Shown: piece by piece, positions 8,889 to 25,445 of the stretch
Layout: each line of letters starts with the position of its first letter
How positions within the stretch are numbered: position 1 is the stretch's first letter
Assembly: GCF_000974445.1 (NCBI RefSeq)
Contig: NZ_BBOJ01000018.1
Coordinates: forward strand, 62,001 to 126,000
DNA length: 64,000 nt
From: Lentzea aerocolonigenes
Lineage (GTDB): Bacteria > Actinomycetota > Actinomycetes > Mycobacteriales > Pseudonocardiaceae
Reading direction: 5' to 3'
The notes under the pieces: generated by a model
Database searches by the model: none
What the model saw: the letters and a program-made list of their open reading frames with translations, nothing else
What the model was told of the DNA's origin: nothing
Position numbers and translations under genes: made by a program

Positions 8889-8957
8889 CCTCTACGTCCC
8901 GTTCGTCTCATTTTGACGGTCCACAATGGAATTCGCTCGGCATGCCATGATGCGTCC

Positions 8958-11642
8958 GTGGGGGTTGAGTTCGAGGTCCTGGGCGAGATCAGGGCGCGCG
9001 TCGACGGTGTGGTGGCGGACCTGGGGGCGGCGCGGCAACGTGCGGTGCTGGCGGCGCTGGTCCTGGAGCCGGGACGTCCGGTGACGGTGGACCAGCTGGT
9101 CGACCGGGTCTGGGGCGACCACGTGCCGGGCACGGTGCTGACGAGCGTGCGCAGTTACGTGTCCAAGCTCCGGACGATCCTGCGCGGTGTGGACATCGTC
9201 GGGCGGGCCGGGGCGTACACGGTGGACTACGAGCCGCGGGCGTTGGACGCGCACCGCTTCACGGCGCTGCTGACCGAGGCGCGGCAGGCGGCGGACGACG
9301 TCGCGGCGGCGCAGGCGTACCGGGCGGCTCTTCAGCTGTGGCGCGGTGAGCCGTTCGCGGGGCTGGAGACGCCGTGGTTCGCCGGACGGCGGCACGCGGT
9401 GGTCGTCGCGCGGCACACGGCCGTGCTCGACCACATCGACATCCAGCTGAGGCGGGGCGCGCACGCCGAGGTGCTGCCCGAACTCCTCGAGCTCGGGCGT
9501 CAGCACCCGCACGACGAACGGGTCGCCGGTCAGCTCATGCTCGCGCTCTACCACAGCGGACGGCAGGCCGAGGCGCTCGACGAGTTCGACCGGACCCGCA
9601 GGCGTCTCGCCGACGAGCTGGGCACCGACCCCGGTCCGGAGCTGGCGAGGCTGCACGAACGGATCCTGCGGGCCGAGTTGCCCACGGCGGTGTCGTCCGT
9701 GCCGCGGCAGCTGCCCGCACGGCCGCAGGTGTTCGCGGGACGGTTGCGCGAGCTCGACGCGCTGGCCGCTCACCTCGACGGCCGCTCGACGGTGGTCATC
9801 TCCGCGATCGGCGGCGTCGGCGGCGTCGGCAAGACGTGGCTCGCGCTGCACTGGGCCCACCAGCGGCTCGACGCGTTCCCCGACGGCCAGCTCTACGCCA
9901 ACCTGCGCGGTTTCGACCCGCGCACCGAGCCGGTGCGGCCGGAGGTGGTGCTGCGGGCGTTCCTCGAGGCGCTCGGCCTGGAGCCGGACGCGATCCCGGT
10001 GGACGCCGACGCGCAGGCCTCGCTGTTCCGCAGCGAGCTCGCGCGCCGCCGGATGCTGATCGTGCTCGACAACGCCCGTGACGCCGGGCAGATCGTGCCG
10101 CTGCTGCCCGGTGCGGGCCCCAGCCGGGTCGTGGTGACGAGCCGCAACCGTTTGGCAGCGCTGGTCTCCGGACACGGCGCCTACCCGCTGACGCTGGACG
10201 TGCTCGACCGGGCGGACGCGCGCGCCGTGCTCGTCGGGCACCTCGGTGAACGCCGGGTCGCGGCCGAACCGGACGCCGTCGCCGCTGTCCTCGACTACTG
10301 CGCCGGCCTGCCGCTGGCGCTCGGAGTCGTGGCGGCACGGGCGCTGGTGCAGTCGGAACTGTCGTTGGGCGCGCTGGCCGACGAGCTGCGCGACGAGCAG
10401 GCCAGGCTGGACGCGGTCGACACCGGCGACACCGACGTGAACCTGCGCGCGGTGCTGTCGTGGTCGGTGCGCGCGTTGTCGGCGAACGCGCGGAAGCTCT
10501 TCGCACTGCTCGGTCAGGTGCCGGGGGCCGACATCGCGGTGCCCGCCGCGGAGTCGCTGTTCGGCGCGCCGGTCCGCGACCTGCTCGACGAACTGGAGCA
10601 CGCGCACCTGGTCTCGCAGCACGTGCCGGGCCGCTACCGGATGCACGACCTGGTCAAACTCTACGCCGCCGAACAGCCCGTTGCGGCGGAACAAGCCTTG
10701 GACCGGCTCGTCGACCACTACGTGCACACGGCCCATGCGGGCGAACGCGGGTTGTTCCCGGAACGCAGGGACATCGAGATGCCGCAAGCCGCACCCGGCA
10801 CCGTCGTCGAGGACCTCCGGGACACCCCGGCGATCATGGCGTGGTTCCACGCCGAGGAGGAGAACCTGCTGGCGATCGCCCCTTCGGCGGGCAGTCGCGT
10901 GTGGCAGCTCGCCTTCTGCACCACGACCTTCCACACGCGCACCAGCAAGTACACCGACCGTCTGGAACTGTGGCTGGCCGCCCTCCCGCACGCGGACGAC
11001 ATGGACGTGCGAACCCTGACCCTCTCGCACCGTTCGGTGGCCGACGCCTACGCCCACCTCGACCGGCACGACGAGGCGATGCACCACCTCCACCGCGCGC
11101 TGGCCGCCGCCGAGGCGTCCGACGACCGGATCGTGGAGGGGCACGTCCACTACGGCATCAGTGCCGCGTACGAACAACGCGGGGACTACGAGTCCGCGGT
11201 CAAGCACTCGGCCGAGGCGCTCCGGCTGTACTCGACGACCACCAACCAGCTGGCGATCGGACAGGCGCACGCGGCGGTCGGCTGGCACAGCGCGCTGGCG
11301 GAGCGCTACGAGGACGCCCGTGAGCACACCGAACGGGCGATCGACATGTTCACCCAGCTCAACGCGATGCAGAGCCTGGGGTGTGCGGTCGACACGCTCG
11401 GACTGGTGGCCAACAAGACCGGTGACCACGCCAGAGCGGTGGAGCTCGGCCGGGAGGCGGTGCGGATCCTCCGGGAAGCCGGTGACACCGCACGAGGCGC
11501 CGACGTGACGTTGCACCTCGGTGAGGCGCTCATCGCCGCGGGCGACGTCGAAGCCGGCCGTGCCGCACTCGTGCAAGCACACGAGATGCTGGTCAGCCAG
11601 GGTCGCACGACCGAGGCGGAGCGCGTCGCCACACTGCTCTGA
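8958..11642 (+). CDS. AfsR/SARP-type transcriptional regulator (OmpR-like HTH, BTAD, NB-ARC, TPR)
   Basis: GTG at 8958 gives 894 residues beginning VGVEFEVLGEIRARVDG, which is exactly where SARP proteins start; GTG-like codons as early as 8913 are in frame but add an unrelated leader, and no good ribosome site decides the matter. The order is winged-helix DNA-binding domain (1-90), bacterial transcriptional activator domain (about 95-240, with the LYHSGRQAEALDEFDRTRRR signature), and NB-ARC ATPase with P-loop GGVGGVGKTWLALHW (about 285) and Walker B RMLIVLDNARD. NB-ARC is followed by its winged helix and C-terminal TPRs. SARPs activate secondary-metabolite and developmental genes through direct repeats near -35. 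The nearest downstream gene is the giant RHS toxin. Confidence 0.9.
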   Translation: MGVEFEVLGEIRARVDGVVADLGAARQRAVLAALVLEPGRPVTVDQLVDRVWGDHVPGTVLTSVRSYVSKLRTILRGVDIVGRAGAYTVDYEPRALDAHRFTALLTEARQAADDVAAAQAYRAALQLWRGEPFAGLETPWFAGRRHAVVVARHTAVLDHIDIQLRRGAHAEVLPELLELGRQHPHDERVAGQLMLALYHSGRQAEALDEFDRTRRRLADELGTDPGPELARLHERILRAELPTAVSSVPRQLPARPQVFAGRLRELDALAAHLDGRSTVVISAIGGVGGVGKTWLALHWAHQRLDAFPDGQLYANLRGFDPRTEPVRPEVVLRAFLEALGLEPDAIPVDADAQASLFRSELARRRMLIVLDNARDAGQIVPLLPGAGPSRVVVTSRNRLAALVSGHGAYPLTLDVLDRADARAVLVGHLGERRVAAEPDAVAAVLDYCAGLPLALGVVAARALVQSELSLGALADELRDEQARLDAVDTGDTDVNLRAVLSWSVRALSANARKLFALLGQVPGADIAVPAAESLFGAPVRDLLDELEHAHLVSQHVPGRYRMHDLVKLYAAEQPVAAEQALDRLVDHYVHTAHAGERGLFPERRDIEMPQAAPGTVVEDLRDTPAIMAWFHAEEENLLAIAPSAGSRVWQLAFCTTTFHTRTSKYTDRLELWLAALPHADDMDVRTLTLSHRSVADAYAHLDRHDEAMHHLHRALAAAEASDDRIVEGHVHYGISAAYEQRGDYESAVKHSAEALRLYSTTTNQLAIGQAHAAVGWHSALAERYEDAREHTERAIDMFTQLNAMQSLGCAVDTLGLVANKTGDHARAVELGREAVRILREAGDTARGADVTLHLGEALIAAGDVEAGRAALVQAHEMLVSQGRTTEAERVATLL

Positions 11643-11710
11643 CCTGCGAACCAATCTTTCGCCAATCTCCTGAGCCCAAGATCTCCCCGACCCGCCGTCC
11701 GGGGGCGGTG

Positions 11711-11727
11711 GGTCGCGTGTCGCGACC
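11711..11727 (+). promoter_or_regulatory. perfect inverted repeat upstream of the RHS gene
   Basis: GGTCGCG (11711-11717) and CGCGACC (11721-11727) form a perfect 7-bp inverted repeat with a 3-base loop, ending 19 bases before the RHS start codon. It could be the end of a terminator for the SARP gene, an operator, or a translational hairpin occluding the leader. Two CCAATCT direct repeats lie further upstream (near 11650-11670). The function is inferred from position only. Confidence 0.4.
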
Positions 11728-11746
11728 TGGGGCTGGGGGATGAAGG

Positions 11747-14700
11747 ATGAGAACGCGTGGGGTTTGCGCTGCCTTCGTGGCGGTGCTGCTGGTGCTCGGC
11801 CTGGCCTCGTCCGCGGTGCCCGTGCTGCCGCCGCTGCCGCTCGGCGCCACCGCGTCGGCGCCGCGGCAGAACAGCGGGTCGGCGGACGGGCTCGAGCCGC
11901 GGAGCAAGTCCGCTAACACGGCGACGGCGTTGCAGGCGCCCGCGCACGACCAGGCGCGTCCGCCCGGTGCGGTGCCCGACACCGCGGAAAGACCTCCCGC
12001 CGGGCCGCAGCCGGACGTCACCGCGCAAAGGCACGAGAAGCCCGCCGTGGTGCAGAAGCCGGACAAGCCTTCGATCGACGAGAAGGCGAAGGAACGCCCG
12101 CAGGACCGCACCGAGAACACCGAGACGTTCGACAACCCCGACGGCTCACGGACGTTGCGCGTCCACTCAGGACAGTCGAACGTTCGCCGGCCCGACGGTT
12201 CGTGGGCACCGATCGACCTCGCGCTCGGCGAGCGCGACGACCGGTGGCAGCCGAAGAACTCCCCGCACGCCACCAGTTTCGGCCGCACCTCCCGTGACGC
12301 CGAGCTCGCCACCGTCGCGTTCGAGAAAGGCGGGATCTCCTACCGCCTCGACGACGCCGCCGACTCCCGCGGCACCGCCGACCAGCACACGGTCACCTAT
12401 CCCGCCGTGTTCCCCGGCGTCGACCTCAAGCTCACCGCCACCGAACGGGGGGTGAAGGAGGACCTGGTCCTCGCCTCGGCCGAGGCCAGGTCCTCCTTCG
12501 GCTTCACCGTGCGAGCGCGCGATCTGACCCCGCGCCTGGTCAACGGCACGATCGAACTGGTCGACGGCGACAAGGTCATCGCATCGATCGCGCGCGGGTT
12601 CGCGCTGGACGCCAAACAGCAGCGCGTCGACACGAACTACGAGCTCGCCAAGAACGCCGACGGCACCTGGGCGCTGAAGGTCGTGCTCGACCCGAAGTGG
12701 TTGCGCGACCCGGCCCGGTCGTTCCCGGTCGTGATCGACCCGACCATCAACTCGTTCGCCGCCGACGACAGCACCTACGTCACGCCGAGCGGCAACGGCA
12801 GCGGGGCGATCGACCTGCGCACCGGCTACGTCGACGGCCAGCTCTCCCGCTCCTACCTGCACTTCGACCGCAACGCGCTCAACGGCGTACGCAACCAGTT
12901 CGTGCTCGGCGCCGCGCTCGTCGTGGAAGCCGCCTACAGCACGACGTGTGCGGCCCGGTCGGTCTCCGTCTACGAGGTCACGCAGCCGTGGGACGCCGGC
13001 GGCATGCGGTGGCCCGGCGCGCCGGTCGGGAAGTCGTTATCCACCAAGGCCTTCGTGCACGGCGGTCCGTCGTGCCCCGGCGCGGCGTGGGAGAAGCTGC
13101 CGCTCGACTACGACACGATGACCCGCTGGACGCACGGCCAGGCCCTGCAGCACGGTCTTGCGTTGCGCGCCTCGGACGAGACCGACCGCAACGGCATGCG
13201 CTTCGGGTCGGTCAACTCGCCGAACAAGCCGTACCTGGAGATCAGCTACGTCCCCGAGGGCGTCTCGTTCGAGGTGACCGACGTGACGCTCCCGTCGGCC
13301 AGCCGCGCCGGGAACATGAAGGTCAAAGTCACGAACTTCGGCTCCACCACGTGGACCAGCGGCGGTGGCTGGAAGTTCGGCTACATCATCAACCAGGGCA
13401 GCACCAGGATCCGCACCGCCTGCTGCTGGGCGCAGAACGTGGCACCGGGCGCCACGGCGCTGTTCGACGTGCCGATCGACCCGATCAACCCCGGTGACTA
13501 CTCGGTCTTCCTGACCATGTTCAACCCGCAGAACAACGACTTCTTCGTCGCCTACGGGGTTCCCTACGGCCGCTTCGAGATCACCGTCCGCAACACGCCG
13601 CCGACGTCGAACCTGCAACAACCCGGCGGTGGCGCGATCGTCCCGACGACCACCCCGACGCTCTACGCGGAAGGCGTGGACGACGACAGGTACCCCGGGA
13701 AGGGCCTGACCTACAAGTTCATCGTCTGCACCAACGCCGACCTCAACCAGGGCTGCCAGGAGTCGGGCTGGGGCGGGCAGTCGTGGGCGCCGTCCGGGTT
13801 GTTCTGGAACCGCACGTACTTCTGGGGTGTCAAGGTCTACGACACCGTCGACGCCACGCCGTTCTGGGTGAGCGCCAAGGACAACGCGCGGCTCATGTTC
13901 ACCCCGCGCACCCAGCAGCCGGAGATCACCTCGCACCTCGCGGGCAGCCCCAGCACCACGATCGGGCCCGGCCTCGACCCGCAGATCGGCAACTACTCGG
14001 CGGTCGTCGCCGACGCCGACGTCGACACCGTCGGCCCGGACCTCACCGTCGGCCGCACCTACAACAGCCTGGACCCGCGCCGCGACACCGCGTTCGGCGT
14101 CGGCTGGTCGTCCAGAGTGGACATGCGGCTCACCAAGGACCAGGACGGCAGCGAGAACGTCGTCATCACCTACCCGACCGGGCGGCAGGGCAGGTTCGGG
14201 CGCAACCCCGACGGCAGCTTCGCGCCACCGTCCGGCCAGAACGCCGAACTGGTCCTCAACACCGCGACCGGGCAGTACGTGCTGCGTGACGCCAGCGCGA
14301 GCAGGTGGACGTTCGACATCCTCGGCAGGCTCGTCACGATCACCGACCCGGCCGGGCTCACCGAGACCCTGACCTACGACACCGACGACCACGTCACCAC
14401 GATCACCAACGACACCAGCGGCCGCAGCCTCGCGCTGACCTGGCAGGGAAACCACGTCTCGTCGGTGTCGGCCGCGGCACCCGAGACCGGCGGCCAGCCG
14501 CTGACCTGGACCTACACCTACGACGGCGACAAGCTCACCCAGTCCTGCGCTCCCGGCCAGGCCTGCACGACGCTGAAGTACCGCGCCGGATCGCACTACC
14601 GCAGCTCCGTGCTCGACGACAGCCCGTACGGCTACTGGCGGCTCGGCGAGACCAGCGGTGACACGTTCGCGAGCGTCGCGGCCCGCAGGCCGGGGACGGA

Positions 14701-17700
14701 CGCGGGGCAGCGGCACGGCGTCGTGCTCGGCGGTGACGGCGCGCTGGCGGGAAGTTCCGACAAGTCCGGCACGTTCGACGGCGTCAGCAGCTACGTGACG
14801 CTGCCGGACAACATCACCAACCAGACGATGTCGCTGGCGGCCGAGCTGTGGTTCAAGACCACCGCCGAGGGCACGTTGCTGAGCTACGCCGACCAGAGCT
14901 TCCCCACGGCGGCGGGCACGTCCACGCCGATCCTCTACGTCGGCACGGACGGCCTGCTCTACGGCGGGTTCGCGCGCCAGAACGCCTCCGGGCCGAGGCA
15001 GATCGTCACCACCAGGAAGGTCGACGACGGCCAGTGGCACCACGTCGTGCTCTCGGCCGCGATCAACACCCAGACGCTGTACCTCGACGGGTCGGCGGCG
15101 GGAACGCTCGCCGGGTACGTCGACCACGCCAAGCAGGGCAGGCTGACGCTCGGTGGCGGCAGCGGCAAGGACTGGCCCGCCGGCAACAACGCCGACTTCT
15201 ACTTCAACGGCGCCATCGACGAGGTCGCGGTCTACCAGCACACGCTGGGCGCGCACGCCGTCAGCCAGCACTTCGAGGCGGCCAAGTCGGCCGACGAGCT
15301 GACCGAACACCTGCTGCCGCAGGACAACCGCAAGTACGTCACCCTCACCTACGACGACGTCAACGACCGAGTCCGCAGCCTCACCGACCACGAGGGCCGC
15401 ACCTGGCAGCTGGACACCCCCGCACGGCAGGACGCGGTGCGCACGGCCGTGTTGCGAGGACCGGCGGGCTACGGGGCGTGGACGTACACGTTCGACGCGG
15501 ACAACGGCGGCCGGCTCGTCAGCCGCACGCACGACAACGCCACCGCGAAGATCGAGTACAACACCTCCGGCTTCGCGTCCGCGACCGTCGACGAGAACAA
15601 CCACCGCACCGAGTTCACCACCGACGAACGCGGCAACGTCCTGAGCACCAAGCGATGCCGCACCGCCGGATCGTGCAACACCAGCTACGCCACCTACCTC
15701 AAGCCCACCGGCCCGCTCGACCCGCGCGCCGACCGGCTGGAGTCCACTTCGGACGCTCGTTCGTCCGGACCTGCTGACACGCGTTTCCGCACCACCTACA
15801 GCTACGACGCACTCGGCCGCCCGACCGACGTGAAGTACCCGATCCCGGACGGGCTCACCGCGGCGCCGACCGAGAGCACGGCCTACTCCAGCGGCGCGGA
15901 AGACGCCGTGGGCGGCGGAAAGGTGCCCGCGGGTCTGCTGATCCGCAGCACCGGCAAGCGGAACCAGGTCACGTCCCGGCGCTACACCGCCAAGGGCGAC
16001 CTCGTCGAGCTCGTCGACCCGGCCGGGCTGACGCAGCGCTACACCTACGACCTGCTGGGCCGGCAGAAGACCGTCAGCCAGGTCAACTCGGGTGGCGCGA
16101 CGCTCGGCACGTCGACCTACGAGTACACGCCCCGCGGCCTGGTCTCGAAGATCACCTCGCCGACGATCGTCAACGCGGTCACCGGCGTGAGCCACACGTT
16201 GGTCACCACGCACAAGTACGACGCCAACGGCAACACGACCGAGACGACGTACGCGGACACCACACCCGGTGAGACCGCCCGCACCACGAAGTTCGCCTAC
16301 GATGCCAGCGACCGGCTGGTGCGCACCGAGTACGCGGACCAGGGCGTGGAAACCCGTTCCTACACCGACAACGGGCTCACCGAGTCGGTCACCGACGTCC
16401 GCGGCACCAGGTGGACCACGCGGTTCAACGAGTTCAGCAAGCCGCTCACCCGCATCGCCGACGGTCCGGGGGTGAACCCGGAGAACCCGGACGCCACCTC
16501 GCTGACGCTGGAGTCGCGGTCCTACGACCCGGCCGGGCGGCTCGCGTTCGTCACCGACGCCATGGGCAGGCTGACGAAGTACGGCTACTACGACGACGAT
16601 CTGCCGGCTACGACCCAGGTCGCGAACGTGGTGGTGGACCAGCGTTCCTACGACCCGGCGGGCAACCTCGTCGAGCAGGTCGCGGCCGGTGGCGCGAAGA
16701 CGACGTCGGCTCACGACCCGGCGGGCAACCTCGTCACGACCACGTTCGACCCGACCGGGCTGAAGCGGTCGGTGTCGGCGAGCTACGACGCCGACGGCAA
16801 CGCGCTGACGGTCGAACGCCGTGGTGCCGCCGACCCGAACCGCGTCGAGAAGACCGCCTACACCTACGACCTCTCGAACCGCCAGACGCGGGTGGACACC
16901 TACGTCGACGCCACCACCGTGCTGTCGACCTCGGCCACCTACGACGAACGCGGGCTCCTGGTCGAGAGCAACGACCGGCGCGGACTCAAGTCCACCTTCG
17001 AGTACGACCAGTCAGGTGCGCTGTACCGCACCACCTCACCGGGCACGGACGCGTGGGTCGCCGGAGTGCGCACGGCCGGGTTCAAGCGCACGGAAACCAT
17101 GGGCTACAACGTGTTCGGCGAGGTCACGCACTCCCGTGACGCGGCGGGCAACGTCACCACCACCGAACGCGACGTGCTCGGGCGTGCCACGGCGGGTGTG
17201 CTGCCCGACTACACGCCGCCCGGTGGCACGACGATCAAGGGTGCCGCGACCCGCACCGAGTACGACCGCGCGGGCAACCCGGTGAAGACGACCGACCCGT
17301 TGCAGCGTGTCCTGCAGCGGACGTACGACCCGTACGGGCGCGTGCTGACCGTGACGCTGCCGCAGGTCGGGGACAGCCCGAGCGTCGTCACGATGCACTA
17401 CGACAAGGTCGGCGAGCTCGTCTCGCAGACCCGGCCGGGCGGCGTGGAGAGCAGGTACACCTACGACGACCTCGGTCGTCAGGTGACCAGCACGCAGGTC
17501 GACCGCTCGTCGGGCAGGACCGCGTTCTTCACCACGACGACCGGGTACGACGAAGCGAGCAACCCGCTCACCGTCACCAGCCCGCTCAACCACGTCACGT
17601 CCTCGACGTTCAACGCCGCGCGCGAGGTGACGTCCACAAAGGACGCCACCAACCGCGAGACCAGATTCGGCTACGACATCGCCGGGCGCCAGGCCTCGGT

Positions 17701-20563
17701 CACCGACCCGGCGGGCATCACCGCGGCCACGACGTACGACCTCGCCGGACGTCCCGTACGGGCGGCGACCGTCGTCGGCGGGCAGGAGAAGCGGGCGTCG
17801 AGCACGGTGTTCGACCCGGCGGGCAACGTCGTGCAGACCACCAGCGCGCAGGGCCGGGTCGTGACCTACGGCTACGACGAGCTGAGCCGGGTGGTGCAGC
17901 AGATCGAGAAGGTCGACGCGAACCACTCGATCACCACCTCGACCGGCTACGACAAGCTCGGCAACCGCAGCCGGTTCGTCGACGGCAACAGCCACGCCAC
18001 CACGTTCACCTACACGCCGTGGGGCATGCCGGAGTCGGTGATCGACCCGCTCGGCGCGACCTTCACGACGTCCTACGACGCGGCCGGTCAGGCGGTCGCG
18101 ACCAGCAAACCCGGCGGTGTCACGACCGCGAACACCTTCGACGCGCAGGGAAGGCTGACCCTCCAGACGGGTTCGGGCGCGGAGGCGACCTACAACCGCA
18201 CCTTCGGCTACGACCCGGCGGGACGGCTGAGCTCCGCCGGCGGCCCGAACGGCGACAGCACCTACCGCTACGACGACCGCGGCAACCTGCTGGAGACCCA
18301 CGGCGCGGGCGGCGAGGCGAGTTTCACCTACGACGCCGACGGCATGATGATCGGCCGCGTCGACGTCACCGGCACCGCGACGTTCGCCTACGACGCGGCC
18401 GGCCGGCTCGCCACGGTGCAGGACCCGCTGACCGGCCGGACCGCCGACTACGGCTACGACCTCGGCGGCAGGCTGTCCTCCGTCGCCGACCGCGTGGTGG
18501 CGGCCAAGACGTCCCGCGTCATCACCTACGACGAACTGGGCCGCACGGCGAAAGACAGGGTCGTGCAGTCCATCGACGTCGGCGTGCCGCCGCGCACGCT
18601 GATCGGCACCGACTACGGCTACGACCTCGACAACAAGATCACGTCGAAGAACGGCAACACCTACTCCTACGACGGTGCCGGCCGGCTCGCGTCGTGGACC
18701 AGCGGAACCACCACCACGGCCTACGGCTGGGACGACGCGGGCAACCGCACTTCGGTGGGGGACAAGACGTTCGTCTACGACGAGCGCAACCGCCTGACGT
18801 CCGGCGACGGCGCGACCTACGGCTACTCGGCCCGCGGCACGCTGCAGACGACGACCCGTGGTGGCACCACCACCACGACGAAGCACGACGCGTTCGACCG
18901 CATGACCGCGATGGGCGGGGTGTCGTACACCTACGACAGCCTCGACCGGGTCAGCGACCGCAACGGCACGAAGTTCCAGTACGCGGGCCAGTCGAACGAG
19001 GTGGTGACCGACGGCAGCCGTTCCATCAGCCGGCTGCCGGACGGAAGTGCGTTCTCGGACAAGGGTGCCGGGGTCGCGCGGATGCTCTACACCGACCAGC
19101 ACGGTGACGTGACGGGCCGGTACCTGAGCAACACCGTCGACGGGACGCGCACGTTCGACCCGTTCGGCACGGTCACGGCCTCGTCCGGCGACACGTCTTC
19201 CGTTGGCTACCAAGGGGACTGGACCGACGCGGAGTCGGGCGCGGTCAACATGTCCGCGCGCTGGTACCAGCCGGGGACGGGCGGGTTCGTCAGCCGCGAC
19301 GACGTGACGGTCGATCCTTCGCCGTCCGCGGCGGCGAACCGCTACTCGTACGGCGCGGGCGACCCGATCGCCAACAGCGACCCGGACGGGCACGACTGGA
19401 TCAACAACGTCTGCGACCTCGGCATGAAGCGGACGGGGAAGGCCACCGGGAAGGTGGCGAAGAAGGTCGTGAAGATCGGCGGCGTCGTCACCACCGTCCT
19501 CGACCAGATGATCTGCAACGCCCCGTCGGTGGCCGGGGAGTGCCGCTCCACCATCTACGACTCGATGCACCGCGTCTGCCCCGGCAAGGAGTGGATGGTC
19601 CCGTACTACTGGAAGGGCGGCAACGAGGAGCCCCTCCGCGTCGGTGACTGCCGGACCTTCGTGCACGGCTGCACGACGAGCGCCCCGAAGAGCCCCGGCA
19701 AGCCGACCACCGGACCCGGCGGTCGCGGCAAGGGCCACAAGGTGGTTCCGCCACGCGCCAAGCCGAAGCCCCCGCCGCCACCGCCGTGGGTCGACCTCAT
19801 CGGCCGCCCGCTGCCGCGCCCGCCGCAGGGCGTGGGGCTGGTGCCGGCACCTCCGACCGTCGACCCGACCGGTCCGCTGACCAGGATCTTCGACCTCACC
19901 GGCAAGTTCCTCGAGAACGCCACCCAGGTCACCGGGGTGCTCGTCGGAATCGCCCACGAGATCATCTCGACGATCCAGGACTTCTCGGACCTGCTGCCCG
20001 ATCCGGGGGATGCGAAGGGCGAGGTCGACCAGTTCCAGGACGAGTCGGAGGACTGCTTCGAGTCCACAGGGGACACAGCGGAGAACGACGAGATGGAGAC
20101 GATCAACTACAAGGGCGAGTATCCCGGCAAGGCCTGGGGTTGGCCCGCCCAGCGTGCCACCGGTGGCACCGCCTGCGTCAGCAGCACTGTCCCGTCGAAG
20201 ACTCGCAAGGACCCGCAGCCTCCGGTCGGCCTCGATCCGACCCGGCACCACAAGGGACACCTGATCGGTCACCAGTTCCACGGCACCCACGAGCGCAAGA
20301 ACATCGTGCCGATCGACGCCGAGGTCAACACACCGGACATGCGCGGCGTCGAGATGGAAATCGCCAAGCAAATCAACACGTTCCACGCCCGCATGTACTA
20401 CCGCGTGGTGGCGCACTACGACGGGGACAACCCGGCGGTGCCGACCTCGATCGAGATCCACGCACGAGGAAGCAACGGGTTCAGATGCGACGCCGAGATC
20501 CTGAACCCACGCCCGAAGGGCGGCTATCCGAACGGGAAACCCAATGGCCAACCCAAGTGTTGA
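11747..20563 (+). CDS. giant secreted RHS/YD-repeat polymorphic toxin with C-terminal DNA/RNA non-specific nuclease domain
   Basis: 2938 residues. A signal peptide (1-25) leads into a low-complexity region, a DNRLRE-like domain (about 335-500), a CARDB/Ig-like segment (about 505-610), the start of the RHS shell (about 745), a LamG-like insertion (about 956-1180, [14 protein letters not shown]) and dozens of YD repeats (xxYDxxGR, about 1190-2460). The RHS core ([36 protein letters not shown], about 2470-2520) marks the usual cleavage and encapsulation boundary. After a Pro-rich linker, the last about 120 residues carry [12 protein letters not shown] and [16 protein letters not shown] (about 2835-2870), matching the His/Asn active site of the Endonuclea_NS_2 toxin family. 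Target and delivery route are inferred. The gene overlaps the immunity gene by 20 bases. Confidence 0.9.
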
Positions 20564-21065
20564 CGAGCTCGTCGAGATGACCGGGTGGACCGGCGCGACC
20601 AGCGCCGGTGCCCACTGGGCCTCCGTCGAGGCCCAGCTCGGGCTGCGCCTGCCCACCGATTTCAAGGACCTCGCGGAGAGGTTCCCCAACGGCTACTTCT
20701 CGTCGTACGTAGCGATGTACGGCCCGGTGCCGGGATCGTCAGGACACTCGGCGCTGCTCCTCCAGGGGGAGCAGTCGCTGGAGATCATGCGGTGCCGGGA
20801 GGACCTCCCGCATCCGGTGCATCCCGCGGCCGGCGGGTTGCTGCCGTGGTCGGAGACGATCGAGGGCGACCAGCTCTGCTGGCTCACGGCCGACCCGGAC
20901 CCGGACCGGTGGCCCGTCGTGTTCTGCACCGCCGACTTCCAGCAGTGGGGTGAGCACCCCGGTGGTGCGGCGGCGTTCCTGCTCGACCTGCTGGCCGGTC
21001 GCGTCACGCACGAGATCTTCGCCAGGTACTCAGGCCGTCTGATTCCGCAGTTCAACCCGATCTAG
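20544..21065 (+). CDS. SUKH/SMI1-KNR4-like immunity protein for the RHS nuclease toxin
   Basis: 173 residues starting at ATG 20544, inside the last 20 bases of the toxin gene, so translation is coupled. The sequence has the SUKH pattern: an N-terminal helix, then WASVEAQLGLRLPTDFKDLA (about 25-45, the VE..LG..LP.D...L signature), then GYFSSYVAMYGP, and a later acidic/aromatic stretch (GDQLCWLTADPDPDRWPVVF). SUKH proteins are the most common immunity proteins of nuclease toxins and bind the toxin domain in the cytoplasm. No signal peptide is present, consistent with self-protection. The specific pairing is inferred from position and overlap. Confidence 0.85.
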   Translation: MANPSVDELVEMTGWTGATSAGAHWASVEAQLGLRLPTDFKDLAERFPNGYFSSYVAMYGPVPGSSGHSALLLQGEQSLEIMRCREDLPHPVHPAAGGLLPWSETIEGDQLCWLTADPDPDRWPVVFCTADFQQWGEHPGGAAAFLLDLLAGRVTHEIFARYSGRLIPQFNPI

Positions 21066-21077
21066 GAAATGGACCCG

Positions 21078-24000
21078 ATGATGAGAACACTGCGACGTGC
21101 GGTCATTCTGACCGTTGGGGTCGCGCTTGCGGTGTCCGGTGCGGTCGCGCCGGTGAACGCGGCGCCGAGACCCGCGCTGCCCGTGCACCAGGGGGAGAAG
21201 GTCGCGAAGGACAAGCGCGGCCGCGTCCTGCTGGAGGTGCGGGGCAGCCGGCTCAAGGAAGCGGCGGCGGTGCTCGGGGGCGAGGTGACCGTGCAGCGGG
21301 ACGACCGCGCGCAGATCGCCGTGCCGGAGAACCGCGTGGCCGACCTGGTGAAGAACAAGTCCGTTGTGGACGTTCGCCGGCCGCAACGCGCTGTGCCCAT
21401 GGCGTTGTCCGAGGGTTTCGACGCCTCCGGTGCCCGGCAGTGGGTCACGGCGGGCAAGACCGGGCAGGACGTGAAGGTCGGCGTCATCGACGTCGGGTTC
21501 TCGCGTCTGGACGAGGCGAAGGGCGAGGGTGACATCCCCGCCGACGTGCAGGTCAACAACACCGGTTGTCACGACGCCACCAAGAACGAGGAGCACGGCA
21601 CGGCGGTCGCCGAGGTCGTGCACGACATGGCGCCGGGCGCGAAGCTCTTCCTCGCGTGCATCGACGGGCCGCTGGACTTCGGACCTGCCACGGACTGGTT
21701 GCGGCAGCAGGGTGTTCAGGTCATCACCGCCGCGATCGGGTTCCTGACCTCCGGGCGCGGTGACGGCACCGGTGAGCCCGGCAGCCCCGCCGACGTCGTG
21801 CGGCAGGCGCGTCAGGCCGGCGTGCTGTGGTCGGTCGCGGCCGGCAACCTCGGCCAGAACCACTTCAGCGGCAACGCCACCGACGCCAACGGTGACGGGT
21901 TCGTCGAGTTCAGCGGTTCGGCGCAGAACAACGGGTTCACGCTCGGCGCCGGCAAGACCGCCACGATCGGCCTGCGCTGGGACGCGTGGCCGAAGTCCAC
22001 GGAGGACCTGGACCTCTACGTCATGAAGAGCGCCCAGGCGCCGACCGGGCCGTCCGATCCGCAGATCATCGCGTCGTCGCTGAACAACCAGCGCGACGTC
22101 GTGGGCGGCGCCCTGCCGACCGAGGAGGTGACGTTCACCAACCCGACCACCAGCTCGCAGCCGTACTGGATCTACCTCAAGAACAACACGGCGAAGTTCA
22201 CCACCCGTCTCGACCTCTTCGCCGCGGTCCCTGACAACGATCACCCGCTCGGGTTCAACACCCCGGCCGGCAGCATCACCGAACCCGCGACCTCGCCGTA
22301 CGTGATCGCGGCCGGCTCCACCAACCCCGGCACCGGCGTCGTGCCGACCTACTCCGGCCGCGGTCCGACGATCGACGGCAGGACGAAGCCGGACATCATC
22401 GGGTTCGACAAGGTCACCACCACGATGTACGGCCAGGAGGGCTTCTACGGCACCTCCGCGGCGGCGGCGCACGTGGCGGGCGCGGCGGCGTTGTTCAAGG
22501 GCGCGTTCCCGGCGCTCGACGCCTCGCAGATCCAGACCGAGCTGCAGGCGCGGACCAACCCGCACAAGAACGACAACACGTGGGGCAGCGGCGTGCTGGC
22601 CATGGGATCGCCGAGCAACCCTCCGGCCACCACCGGCTCCGCCTACAACCCGTTGCAGACGTCGGTGCAGATCCAGGGCAGGACGTACGCGGCCAACGAG
22701 GTTTTCACGTTGCCGGTCCCGAACATCACCAACGACGCCACCGCCGTGGTGTTCAACCTGGCGGCGAAGACCGACGGGTCGTCCGAGGTGGAGAGCGGCA
22801 TGGACGTCTTCCCCACGGACCCGGCGTCGTCCACGTCCAAGGCCGCGACGGTGCGCGTGCGGCCGGGCGGTGGGTACGTGTCGACCCTGGTCGTCGCGAA
22901 GATCGGCCCTGACCGCGCCATCCGGTTGCGGGCGGGGGCGGGTCCGGTGAACGTCCAGCTCGACATGCTCGGCTACTTCAGCCCCACGGCGGGCTCGACG
23001 TACGTGGCGAGCCCGCAGCCCGTCCGCGTGCTCGACACCCGCGGCTACAACGGCAGCCCGCGCGCGACCAAGCTCGGTTCCGGCGAGGTGCAGCTCATCA
23101 AGGCCCGTGGTGCCAACGGCATTCCGGACAACGCCACCGCGGTCGTGGTGAACCTGACCGGCAGCGAGTCGACGACCGGCACCGGGTTCGGCCTCTACGC
23201 CCAGGACAACTCGGGCACCTCGCTCAACGTCGGCCGCAACGAACGCCGTTCCAACACCGCCATCGTCACGATCGGCGCGGACGGCAACTTCCGGCTGCGC
23301 AACGGCATCGGCCAGGTGCACGCGATGGTCGACATCCTCGGCTGGTTCGTCGCCGGTGGAGGGGGAGCGCGGTACGTGCCGCTGACCGAGGCGACCCGGA
23401 TCGCCGACACCGCCACGGGAACCGGCGGCCGCACCACCCCGCTGGGCCAGGGCGAGACCACCACGTTCCAGGTGACCGGCGCCGCGGGCATCCCGGCGAA
23501 CGCCACCTCGGCCGTGCTCATGCCGTCGGTGCAGGACGACCTGCTCGGCACCGAACTGTCGGTGGCACCGGCGGAGATCGGCACCTCGCCGGCCTCCGCG
23601 ATCACGACCAGGCAGCGGGAACGCCTGTCCACCACCGCGTTCACGCCGCTGGGCGCGAGCGGCAAGGTGGCCGTGCGCAACGAACGCGGCAGCTCGTTCG
23701 TCTCGCTCGACGCCCAGGGCTACTTCGTCGGCGGGGCACAGGTCGGTGGCGGCGACTGCGCCGCGCCGGTCAACGAACCCGGCTACACCAGCGCGTTCGA
23801 CGGCAGGCTCGAGTCGAACCTGGCGGGGTGGCGGACGGCGGGCACCAACCCGGTGCAGGCGAACGGGTGCGAGCTCATGACGAACTCGTCCCGTGACGTC
23901 ACCTGGTACGCCGCCCGCACGATGGGCATGGACTACACGGTGAAACTGGACTGGATGGTCACCAGCTCGACCGCGGAGTCCGGTGTGGTGGTGCTGTTCA

Positions 24001-25445
24001 ACGATCCGGGATCGGTGGCCACGGCGCCCGTGGACCGGGGTGTGCGGGTGCCGATCTCGTCGCTGTCGACGGGCGCGATCGAACCCGGCAAGAAGCAGGA
24101 CTTCGACGCCGCCAAGCCGGTGGGACAGTGGAACACCTTCGAGATCACCGTCGCGTTCAACACGGTGACCGTGGTGCTCAACGGCCAGCAGGTCAACCGC
24201 CACACGGTCACCGACCTGAACCGCGTGCACAACGACGGCTTCATCGGCCTGCAGAACTCGGGCAGCACCCCGGCCGTCAAGTTCCGCAACGTCAGGGTCA
24301 AGCGCAACACCGCCACGCGCAACGGTGAGATCGTCGGCGTCAACAACCGGTGCCTGGACGTTCCCGGGTACAGCACGTCCGCCGTGCAGCTGCAGATGTG
24401 GGACTGCAACGACTTCCCGAACCAGCGCTGGACGATGCTCGGCGACGGCCGCATCACCAACCTCGGCCGCTGCCTGGCGCTCGAGAACGGTGGCACGGCG
24501 GCGGGCACGGCGGTGACGTTCCAGGGCTGCAGCGCGGAGAACCTGATGCTGTGGGTGGCCCGCCCGGACGGCGCGATCGTCAGCGTCCGCTCGGGCAAGT
24601 GCCTCACGCCCGCCAACACCAACGCCGGCGCGTCGTTGAAGATCCAGGACTGCACGGGCGCCGCGACCCAGGTGTGGCGGATTCCGGACCAGCACGGTCA
24701 GTGGGGCGCGTTCTACGGCCTCGCCGGCAAGTGCCTGGACATCCACAACAACGACGCGAACAACAAGAAGGTCCAGCCGTGGGACTGCAACGCCGGGGCT
24801 GCCCAGTGGTGGAGCATCGTCGGCGACGGCCGGATCGCGTCGTCGGGCCGCTGCCTGGACCAGACGAACGGCGCGGTGTCGCTTCAGGACTGCAACGGCT
24901 CCCGCAACCAGAAGTGGACCGCCCGGCCTGACGGAACCGTGCTGAACGAGGCTTCGAACCGCTGCCTCACGGCCGCGTCCGCCACCAACGGCGCCGCCTA
25001 CACCGTGCAGGACTGCACGCGCACCCCGTTGCAACTCTGGAGGTTCAGTGCCACGGCCCTGTGGATCGGAGTCCTGGAAGGGATCGGCGGCAAGTGCGCC
25101 GACGTCAAGGGTGAGAACCCGGCCAACGGAATCATCTGGCTGTGGACGTGTTTCGGCCCGCCCGGCGAGACCTACGGGGGCATGCCCGACGGCGACCTCC
25201 GCACCATGGGTGTGTGCACCGACGTCGGTGCTCTCACCAACGGCACCGCGGTCGGCGTCGCCAACTGCCACGGCGGCCTGAGCCAGCAGTGGTCGGTCCG
25301 CTCGGATGCCACCATCGTCAACGTCGAGTCCGGCCGATGCATGGACGTGGAGGCGGGGAACACGGCTGACGGCACGAAGATCCAGCTGTGGGACTGCGTC
25401 GGCACCCCGCAGCAACGGTGGTCGGTTCCGCTGAGCGCGAGCTGA
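21078..25445 (+). CDS. secreted S8 subtilisin-like protease with DUF1080-like domain and three ricin-B lectin domains
   Basis: The start is set at ATG 21078 (21081 equally possible) because AGGA at 21064-21067 suits it; ATG 21069 is too close to that site. About 1455 residues with a Sec signal (TLRRAVILTVGVALAVSGAV). The catalytic triad is Asp in VGVIDVGF (about 137), His in EEHGTAVAEVVHDMAPGA (about 173) and Ser in YGTSAAAAHVAGAAA (about 458), with the oxyanion Asn in AAGNLGQ (about 256). Three repeats of about 120 residues ending LDMLGYF, VDILGWF and LDAQGYF follow (about 525-890), then a DUF1080-like jelly roll (about 898-1078) and three ricin-B domains with QxW repeats (about 1083-1200, 1213-1323, 1333-1454). 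It begins about 12 bases after the immunity gene and may mature the RHS toxin. Confidence 0.9.
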   Translation: MMRTLRRAVILTVGVALAVSGAVAPVNAAPRPALPVHQGEKVAKDKRGRVLLEVRGSRLKEAAAVLGGEVTVQRDDRAQIAVPENRVADLVKNKSVVDVRRPQRAVPMALSEGFDASGARQWVTAGKTGQDVKVGVIDVGFSRLDEAKGEGDIPADVQVNNTGCHDATKNEEHGTAVAEVVHDMAPGAKLFLACIDGPLDFGPATDWLRQQGVQVITAAIGFLTSGRGDGTGEPGSPADVVRQARQAGVLWSVAAGNLGQNHFSGNATDANGDGFVEFSGSAQNNGFTLGAGKTATIGLRWDAWPKSTEDLDLYVMKSAQAPTGPSDPQIIASSLNNQRDVVGGALPTEEVTFTNPTTSSQPYWIYLKNNTAKFTTRLDLFAAVPDNDHPLGFNTPAGSITEPATSPYVIAAGSTNPGTGVVPTYSGRGPTIDGRTKPDIIGFDKVTTTMYGQEGFYGTSAAAAHVAGAAALFKGAFPALDASQIQTELQARTNPHKNDNTWGSGVLAMGSPSNPPATTGSAYNPLQTSVQIQGRTYAANEVFTLPVPNITNDATAVVFNLAAKTDGSSEVESGMDVFPTDPASSTSKAATVRVRPGGGYVSTLVVAKIGPDRAIRLRAGAGPVNVQLDMLGYFSPTAGSTYVASPQPVRVLDTRGYNGSPRATKLGSGEVQLIKARGANGIPDNATAVVVNLTGSESTTGTGFGLYAQDNSGTSLNVGRNERRSNTAIVTIGADGNFRLRNGIGQVHAMVDILGWFVAGGGGARYVPLTEATRIADTATGTGGRTTPLGQGETTTFQVTGAAGIPANATSAVLMPSVQDDLLGTELSVAPAEIGTSPASAITTRQRERLSTTAFTPLGASGKVAVRNERGSSFVSLDAQGYFVGGAQVGGGDCAAPVNEPGYTSAFDGRLESNLAGWRTAGTNPVQANGCELMTNSSRDVTWYAARTMGMDYTVKLDWMVTSSTAESGVVVLFNDPGSVATAPVDRGVRVPISSLSTGAIEPGKKQDFDAAKPVGQWNTFEITVAFNTVTVVLNGQQVNRHTVTDLNRVHNDGFIGLQNSGSTPAVKFRNVRVKRNTATRNGEIVGVNNRCLDVPGYSTSAVQLQMWDCNDFPNQRWTMLGDGRITNLGRCLALENGGTAAGTAVTFQGCSAENLMLWVARPDGAIVSVRSGKCLTPANTNAGASLKIQDCTGAATQVWRIPDQHGQWGAFYGLAGKCLDIHNNDANNKKVQPWDCNAGAAQWWSIVGDGRIASSGRCLDQTNGAVSLQDCNGSRNQKWTARPDGTVLNEASNRCLTAASATNGAAYTVQDCTRTPLQLWRFSATALWIGVLEGIGGKCADVKGENPANGIIWLWTCFGPPGETYGGMPDGDLRTMGVCTDVGALTNGTAVGVANCHGGLSQQWSVRSDATIVNVESGRCMDVEAGNTADGTKIQLWDCVGTPQQRWSVPLSAS

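Follow-up and report, generated by a model that had tools for sequence, protein, structure and literature searches.

Why is the gene of a giant secreted toxin and its candidate antidote followed by a gene for a secreted protease that carries lectin repeats? The question is raised by a locus of Lentzea aerocolonigenes (assembly GCF_000974445.1) lying within a stretch of 64,000 nucleotides, the whole of which was analysed and is called the window here (contig NZ_BBOJ01000018.1, positions 62,001 to 126,000, forward strand). We read the locus as a three-gene weapon module comprising an RHS-nuclease toxin, a SUKH antidote and a dedicated lectin-subtilase that would act on the RHS protein, and we put the probability of this reading at roughly two in three. 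Together, the giant toxin, antidote and protease gene suggest a weapon of more parts than known. The features of the module, in window coordinates, are listed below.

11747 to 20563, plus strand: secreted RHS toxin, 2938 amino acids (aa); open reading frame, signal-peptide-like N-terminus read by eye
12785 to 13243, plus strand: DNRLRE domain, residues 347-499 (NF033679, 71.1 bits, cut-off 34)
13985 to 14197, plus strand: DUF6531, residues 747-817, start of the RHS shell (Pfam)
14777 to 15262, plus strand: Laminin-G/ConA-like domain within the shell, residues 1011-1172 (Pfam Laminin_G_3, 65.3 bits, cut-off 27.6)
19154 to 19393, plus strand: RHS-associated core, residues 2470-2549 (Rhs_assc_core, TIGR03696, 62 bits), including SDPDGH
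19394 to 19999, plus strand: constant pre-toxin linker, a cysteine-rich stretch and then a proline run with tryptophan; border to the tip approximate
19769 to 19789, plus strand: PPPPPPW motif of the linker, residues 2675-2681 (sequence reading)
20000 to 20560, plus strand: exchangeable toxin tip, NucA/EndA-type nuclease domain (Pfam stretch 20189-20467; H2838, N2852, N2861, E2869)
20544 to 21065, plus strand: SUKH-type candidate immunity protein, 173 aa, overlapping the RHS frame by 20 bases
21069 to 25445, plus strand: secreted subtilase (S8) with a 3-keto-disaccharide-hydrolase/ConA-like domain and ricin-B lectin repeats, 1458 aa (open reading frame, Pfam)

The interval described in the first-pass annotation of this DNA ended before the subtilase gene (21069..25445), the gene that makes this RHS version distinctive. 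By comparison with relatives its start may also be placed at 21078 or 21081, so that the gene begins 3-15 bases past the SUKH stop, according to which start codon is used. We searched 297 genomes of the family, the Lentzea genome included, using residues 741-1200 of the RHS protein as query, and found 14 genomes that together hold 17 loci at 55% identity or more, after which identity dropped to about 50% and lower; these loci are referred to as the clade. When residues 1-527 of the subtilase were used as query against the same 297 genomes, with E up to 1e-40 and four candidates scored in each, these 14 genomes came up again, likewise with 17 loci. The subtilase lay downstream of the clade RHS gene on the same strand in 17/17 cases, its match beginning 19-2374 bases past the RHS stop, with SUKH genes occupying the longest distance. 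It was found at 0/15 of the sister-clade RHS loci fetched, within at least 9 kb downstream, and among the nine other RHS loci of the Lentzea genome only at the one belonging to the same clade (L115).

The association extends to other families. Among 394 genomes sampled across the class, the subtilase was observed, besides the Lentzea genome, in G427 only, together with an RHS protein of 54% identity. The two genes of G427 are on two contigs; on that of the subtilase, about 110 bases upstream of it, lies the cut end of a frame that starts with proline-rich, linker-like sequence and carries a different tip. Another genome of this sample, G539, whose RHS protein is 50% identical, gave no match to the subtilase. 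A set of named loci contained 14 with at least 52% identity (six repeating loci of the family sample, a Nonomuraea locus identical with that of G427, and seven additional ones); the subtilase was downstream in 13, and the Nonomuraea locus is cut by the contig end. These loci come from Lentzea, Solihabitans, Saccharothrix, Virgisporangium, Paractinoplanes, Actinoplanes, Nonomuraea, Micromonospora, Amycolatopsis and Nocardia sp. NRRL S-836. Named loci of 47% identity or less had the subtilase in 0/4 cases. Across 20 loci, RHS and subtilase distances correlated with r=0.85, and RHS and tip distances with r=0.49. The lectin-subtilase thus appears, in the samples searched, to be a constant partner of the RHS clade.

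The subtilase triad consists of D141, H176 and S463, and the D, H and S are invariant in 17/17 partners, from which we predict that selection has probably kept an active protease. A PADLOC scan matched this third gene alone, with a generic subtilase model (E 4.2e-12), and gave no match on the RHS or SUKH gene. The lectin part is less constant. Among eight partner subtilases scanned, the Lentzea protein and L081 carry ricin and ConA-like domains, as does L148, which is cut at the end of its locus; Laminin-G is added in L147 and L149, while L138 has two Laminin-G stretches and L151 has one. Such variation would also suit a partner that serves as a lectin-carrying targeting subunit, with a subtilase domain that attaches to the RHS protein but does not cleave it. 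In the accessible portions of the papers cited here, to which all our comparisons with the literature refer, the trypsin-like domain of UmbA has an incomplete triad, binds its partner and carries lectins (PMC11062931), and the lectin part is variable here too, being ricin, Laminin-G, both or none. The triad that is intact in every partner speaks against a non-cutting subunit, and we consider this explanation rather unlikely.

Upstream of the cassette, the other constant element is the linker. Its pattern P[PD]P..W was found 115-151 residues past the core in 15/16 clade loci read; 13 of the 16 have at least five prolines and two read PDPDW. The pattern recurred in 6/7 additional named loci and in 1/15 sister-clade loci, there close to the C-terminus. 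The comparison of L106 with L154 (Amycolatopsis orientalis) shows how sharply the constant part ends. Their RHS proteins are 80-87% identical per 100 columns over the first 400 columns and 84-100% identical thereafter, from the shell through the core, the cysteine-rich stretch and the proline linker; just past the proline motif, identity falls via 72% to 33-36% in the tips, and the subtilases are 94% identical. PIN tips were observed in 3/17 clade loci, with a different small gene in the antidote slot that gave zinc-ribbon-like matches below cut-offs only, and on the RHS tree at least two changes are required. The clade paralogue in the Lentzea genome (L115, 7721-16780 on G000:C52), whose shell is about 65% identical over residues 741-1200 and whose subtilase is of the same type, has a PIN-domain tip and a 119-aa frame in the antidote slot, again with zinc-ribbon-like matches below cut-offs. 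At L143 the tip and the 137-aa slot gene had no family assignment. The swapping of tips among related RHS C-termini, for which the first-pass annotation had proposed to look, is seen both in the L106/L154 exchange and in the PIN tips. These comparisons show in silico that a tip/antidote cassette has been exchanged between two constant flanks, the RHS gene with its linker upstream and the subtilase gene downstream.

Actinomycetes often secrete subtilases that carry lectin repeats, and the locus could be a plain toxin/immunity pair behind which a degradative enzyme, serving nutrition or self-maturation, is co-inherited with no role in the toxin. It would be in keeping with this that an interaction between the RHS protein and the subtilase is deduced from linkage and that one partner, at L105, is without lectins. 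However, the linkage of 17/17 against 0/15 is kept in other families, the cassette between the two genes has been exchanged or is without an antidote gene, and the linker pattern mostly tracks the linkage. A merely co-inherited enzyme is, in our judgement, unlikely.

The open reading frames of the RHS and 173-aa proteins, with their 20-base overlap, were found in the frame list as first annotated, and the RHS shell, the core and the added DNRLRE and Laminin-G domains were all recovered by Pfam or NCBIfam matches. The DNRLRE match was obtained on scanning residues 347-499 alone; the NCBIfam scan of the whole protein did not show it. RHS_repeat was matched in 18 stretches of the protein (Pfam). 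An SDPDGH-type motif is the usual self-cleavage place of Rhs proteins (compare PMC12704120). In the RHS core the second half of the self-cleavage motif DPxG-x18-DPxG is SDPDGH; the first half reads RDDVT and the spacer is longer. No PAAR match was found in the whole protein (E 0.1) or when residues 1-740 were divided into three pieces for scanning (E 1), on which ground we reject an Rhs effector of the type VI secretion kind, and no ALF repeats were matched by Pfam in the whole protein or in residues 1-740 scanned piecewise.

The size of the protein had been called unusual, and this we reject. Scoring 150 of the 334 candidates in the Lentzea genome gave at least ten RHS frames, with lengths of 1093-3931 aa, and 2938 aa is ordinary for the clade, in which the open frames measure 2906-3021 aa at 16/17 loci and the 17th is split over two frames. 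At L119/L140 (Lentzea indica) a clade RHS gene in two frames has a PIN-type tip and a subtilase frame downstream; the division is either a sequencing error or decay.

The first reading of the tip as an Endonuclea_NS_2-like nuclease, based on motifs that include H2838, N2852 and N2861, agrees with the Pfam match at residues 2815-2907 (52.6 bits, cut-off 27, E 6.9e-14). A single-sequence search of PDB with the tip gave one sub-threshold match only, to Spd1 (E 0.65), and a contig scan of the genome with the tip alone gave no relative. A profile of 11 tips matched Spd1 (2xgr, E 2.6e-13), NucA (4qgo, 1.8e-12), EndA (9.4e-8), streptodornase D (1.1e-7) and, weakly, EssD (8guo, 1.7e-4). The AlphaFold model of the tip has a mean confidence (pLDDT, predicted local distance difference test) of 80.4, with values below 50 in the first 19 and last 7 residues, and its best Foldseek matches were EndA (3owv, E 2.2e-6) and NucA (4qgo, 5.9e-6), at a TM (template modelling) score of about 0.5. 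The fold check suggested with the first annotation thus came out in favour of a nuclease, and chance motif matches are ruled out by the Pfam, profile-to-PDB and Foldseek results. H2838, N2852, N2861 and E2869 are invariant in 9/9 and 11/11 aligned tips, the G of GH being S in some, in agreement with the GH, N, N, E signature of Tox-NucA (PMC3482391); cysteines are also conserved in the aligned tips. A NucA/EndA-type nuclease fold with intact catalytic residues is therefore well supported in silico, and from it we predict activity and toxicity.

For the 173-aa protein, the SUKH-type assignment made at first reading was upheld by a SUKH_6 match barely above its cut-off (29.0 bits against 27, E 1.6e-6); SMI1_KNR4 stayed under its own (23.6 bits, cut-off 25.4). 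The AlphaFold model (pLDDT 83.9) had as its best Foldseek match 2prv, YobK, which we take to be a SUKH protein, with a probability of 0.99, E 0.016 and TM 0.55-0.62, and there was no match at or below 0.001. The single-sequence search of PDB gave no match, and a SUKH profile found no relative there, only one chance match to a xylanase. No signal sequence is visible by eye. By these sequence and model comparisons the protein is a SUKH protein, and it is most likely the antidote of the adjacent tip.

Tip and SUKH genes are also paired beyond this locus. Relatives of the tip occur in 39/297 family genomes and those of the 173-aa protein in 89/297. In 41/50 tip matches listed, the Lentzea locus included, a SUKH relative in the same orientation follows at no more than 1500 bases, with a median of 95 bases, and the pairing is for this reason beyond chance; the other 9/50 are without such a relative, one of them (G147) having a weak SUKH match. 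Tip and SUKH distances correlate with r=0.78, a value reached in 0/5000 permutations (28 pairs from 33 loci) and partly raised by shared descent. By Pfam, similarity or alignment, 20 loci of the clade were typed as NucA-tipped; in 12/20 the slot holds a SUKH gene. The nuclease/immunity pair that was proposed from the letters alone accordingly stands on its folds, on co-divergence and on the 41/50 adjacency; it does not extend to the 8/20 clade loci that have no adjacent antidote candidate. In other chassis, strings of SUKH genes were observed behind the tip at L093 and L101, like the polyimmunity loci of PMC3482391.

The NucA-type tip and SUKH gene are also found on proteins of about 1425-1592 aa that have no RHS repeats. 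In the N-terminal parts of 4/4 such proteins tested (L085, L088, L091, L094), ALF repeats were above the Pfam cut-off; those of L085 came from the N-terminal part scanned alone, the whole-protein scan having shown none. In the L085 frame (9747-14168, minus strand) the ALF repeats are followed by a long alanine-rich stretch that is coiled-coil-like by eye, a layout resembling that of UmbC (PMC11062931). By sequence, these ALF-repeat tip carriers of Pseudonocardiaceae resemble umbrella toxins. Several of them have as a neighbour on the opposite strand a protein roughly 1070 aa long that gave weak ricin-type matches; the one at L085 has LGFP, ALF and ricin-B domains.

The nearest solved relatives of the tip include the secreted DNases Spd1 and streptodornase, the tip has conserved cysteines, and 8/20 loci are without an adjacent immunity candidate. 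The tip could then be an extracellular DNase, acting on extracellular DNA in biofilms or in nutrient use, for which entry into cells is unneeded. Against such a role stands the SUKH gene, which has no visible signal sequence, co-diverges with the tip and follows it onto an unrelated chassis. PIN tips on the same RHS shell also argue against it, the RNA targets of the PIN family being inside cells, and we find an extracellular role quite improbable. RHS shells are also found in toxins acting on animals, and Laminin-G and ricin-type lectins could bind eukaryotic glycans, but the immunity-type gene at 41/50 tips listed and its co-divergence point to bacterial kin at risk, so that a eukaryotic target (soil fungi, protists or invertebrates) has very little in its favour.

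We therefore return to the three-gene weapon as the preferred reading and suggest how it may function. The RHS protein would be exported by Sec, and its shell, with DNRLRE and Laminin-G, would fold outside the cell, where these domains and the lectins of the partner would place it at a surface. The subtilase might then process or open the toxin at the conserved cysteine/proline-rich linker, or dock to it. The NucA-type endonuclease would be delivered into a neighbouring cell, the toxin presumably being used against neighbouring bacteria, and the SUKH protein in the cytoplasm of the producer would neutralise the nuclease and protect kin. A more specific version is offered tentatively, as one that we hold to be possible rather than probable. 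In it, the RHS shell is licensed in trans: a surface-bound lectin-subtilase would cut or open the PPPPPxW linker, so that the tip is freed only where the lectins have bound, and the cassette, lying between two constant genes and shared with umbrella-type ALF toxins, would be one pool on which two unrelated delivery machines draw.

Several observations weigh against the three-gene weapon. Cleavage of the RHS protein by the subtilase is itself a supposition, and the domain scan showed no lectin on the L105 subtilase. The linker pattern is absent from L122 and L147, and L157, a distant RHS protein without subtilase, has a looser linker match at residue 199 past the core. With four to five candidates scored per genome, distant unpaired copies may have been missed, and since RHS and tip distances also correlate (0.49), shared descent is part of such correlations. 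Moreover, 8/20 NucA-tipped clade loci (L082, L098, L099, L105, L122, L147, L149, L151) have no gene at all between RHS and subtilase. At L082, whose tip is 45% identical to the Lentzea tip, no SUKH relative was found within the 20-kb stretch; the single SUKH match of that genome lies elsewhere and is a 165-aa protein recurrent in the genus, the Lentzea genome included. It follows that at such loci an antidote in the slot is not obligate, unlike the subtilase. Either the toxin is inactive in the cytoplasm of the producer, as the conserved cysteines would allow, or the antidote is encoded elsewhere, or some of these systems are degenerate.

Much of the module belongs to known kinds. Tox-NucA on RHS with Imm-SUKH is an already catalogued polymorphic toxin class (Zhang et al. 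2012, PMC3482391), which shares with our locus the C-terminal nuclease with GH, N, N and E, the RHS repeats and an immunity gene of the SUKH kind; Laminin-G and RicinB, among other adhesion domains, are named in that source, as is Sec-type export. There, subtilisin is listed among the proteases that process Sec-exported toxins, and it also appears as Peptidase S8 together with Ntox32 and, in mycosin-like form, beside Ntox38; a subtilase with lectins that is encoded separately and dedicated to one RHS clade was not found in the accessible text. Nor was the RHS/subtilase module found in the literature searched, mostly without subscription literature and including the accessible parts of PMC3482391, PMC11062931, PMC13274773 and PMC12704120. 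As far as these sources go, the RHS shell, its tip and the antidote are each of a known kind, as is their combination (PMC3482391), and what is new is the constant subtilase/lectin partner with the cassette in between.

The umbrella toxins (UmbA/UmbB/UmbC, PMC11062931) are likewise secreted actinomycete toxins with an exchangeable tip and a partner that joins a protease fold to variable lectins, and a tip of the Lentzea kind with SUKH is found on the ALF-repeat proteins of relatives (4/4 tested). Here, however, the chassis is an RHS shell instead of ALF repeats and the partner an intact-triad subtilase instead of an inactive trypsin-like domain; with no ALF match in the RHS protein and a complete partner triad, the locus is not placed in the umbrella family. 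WapA of Streptococcus suis (PMC12704120) is similarly a giant Sec-exported Gram-positive RHS toxin with dedicated partner genes and cleavage near DPxG-type motifs, but its partners, a SrtB sortase and a SecF-like protein, are upstream, whereas the subtilase/lectin gene is downstream of the cassette. NucA, EndA, Spd1 and the type VII EssD have the fold and catalytic residues of the tip; the first three are free secreted nucleases and EssD is on another delivery domain, whereas here the nuclease is on RHS.

The lectin-protease gene, present at each clade locus with a readable next gene, offers a definite and readily testable candidate for the step that releases or targets the tip; to our knowledge, tip release by giant Sec-exported Gram-positive RHS toxins is largely open. 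The cassette kind shared with ALF-repeat, umbrella-like proteins ties together two delivery architectures within one bacterial family.

No terminator-like sites were found on the plus strand between the RHS, SUKH and subtilase genes, and the promoter scan gave 0 sites (0.2 expected from shuffles). One further feature lies directly upstream.

8913 to 11642, plus strand: SARP-like regulator with BTAD, NB-ARC and TPR (Pfam)

A homologue of this gene was upstream in 4/13 loci, and of 13 flanking window genes tried one other matched, in 1 locus. The association is weak, and a role of the SARP-like gene as regulator of the locus is possible. Among distant RHS proteins without subtilase, HINT-like stretches were seen by eye before the tip at L135, L137, L152, L153 and L157; these would be another route of tip release.

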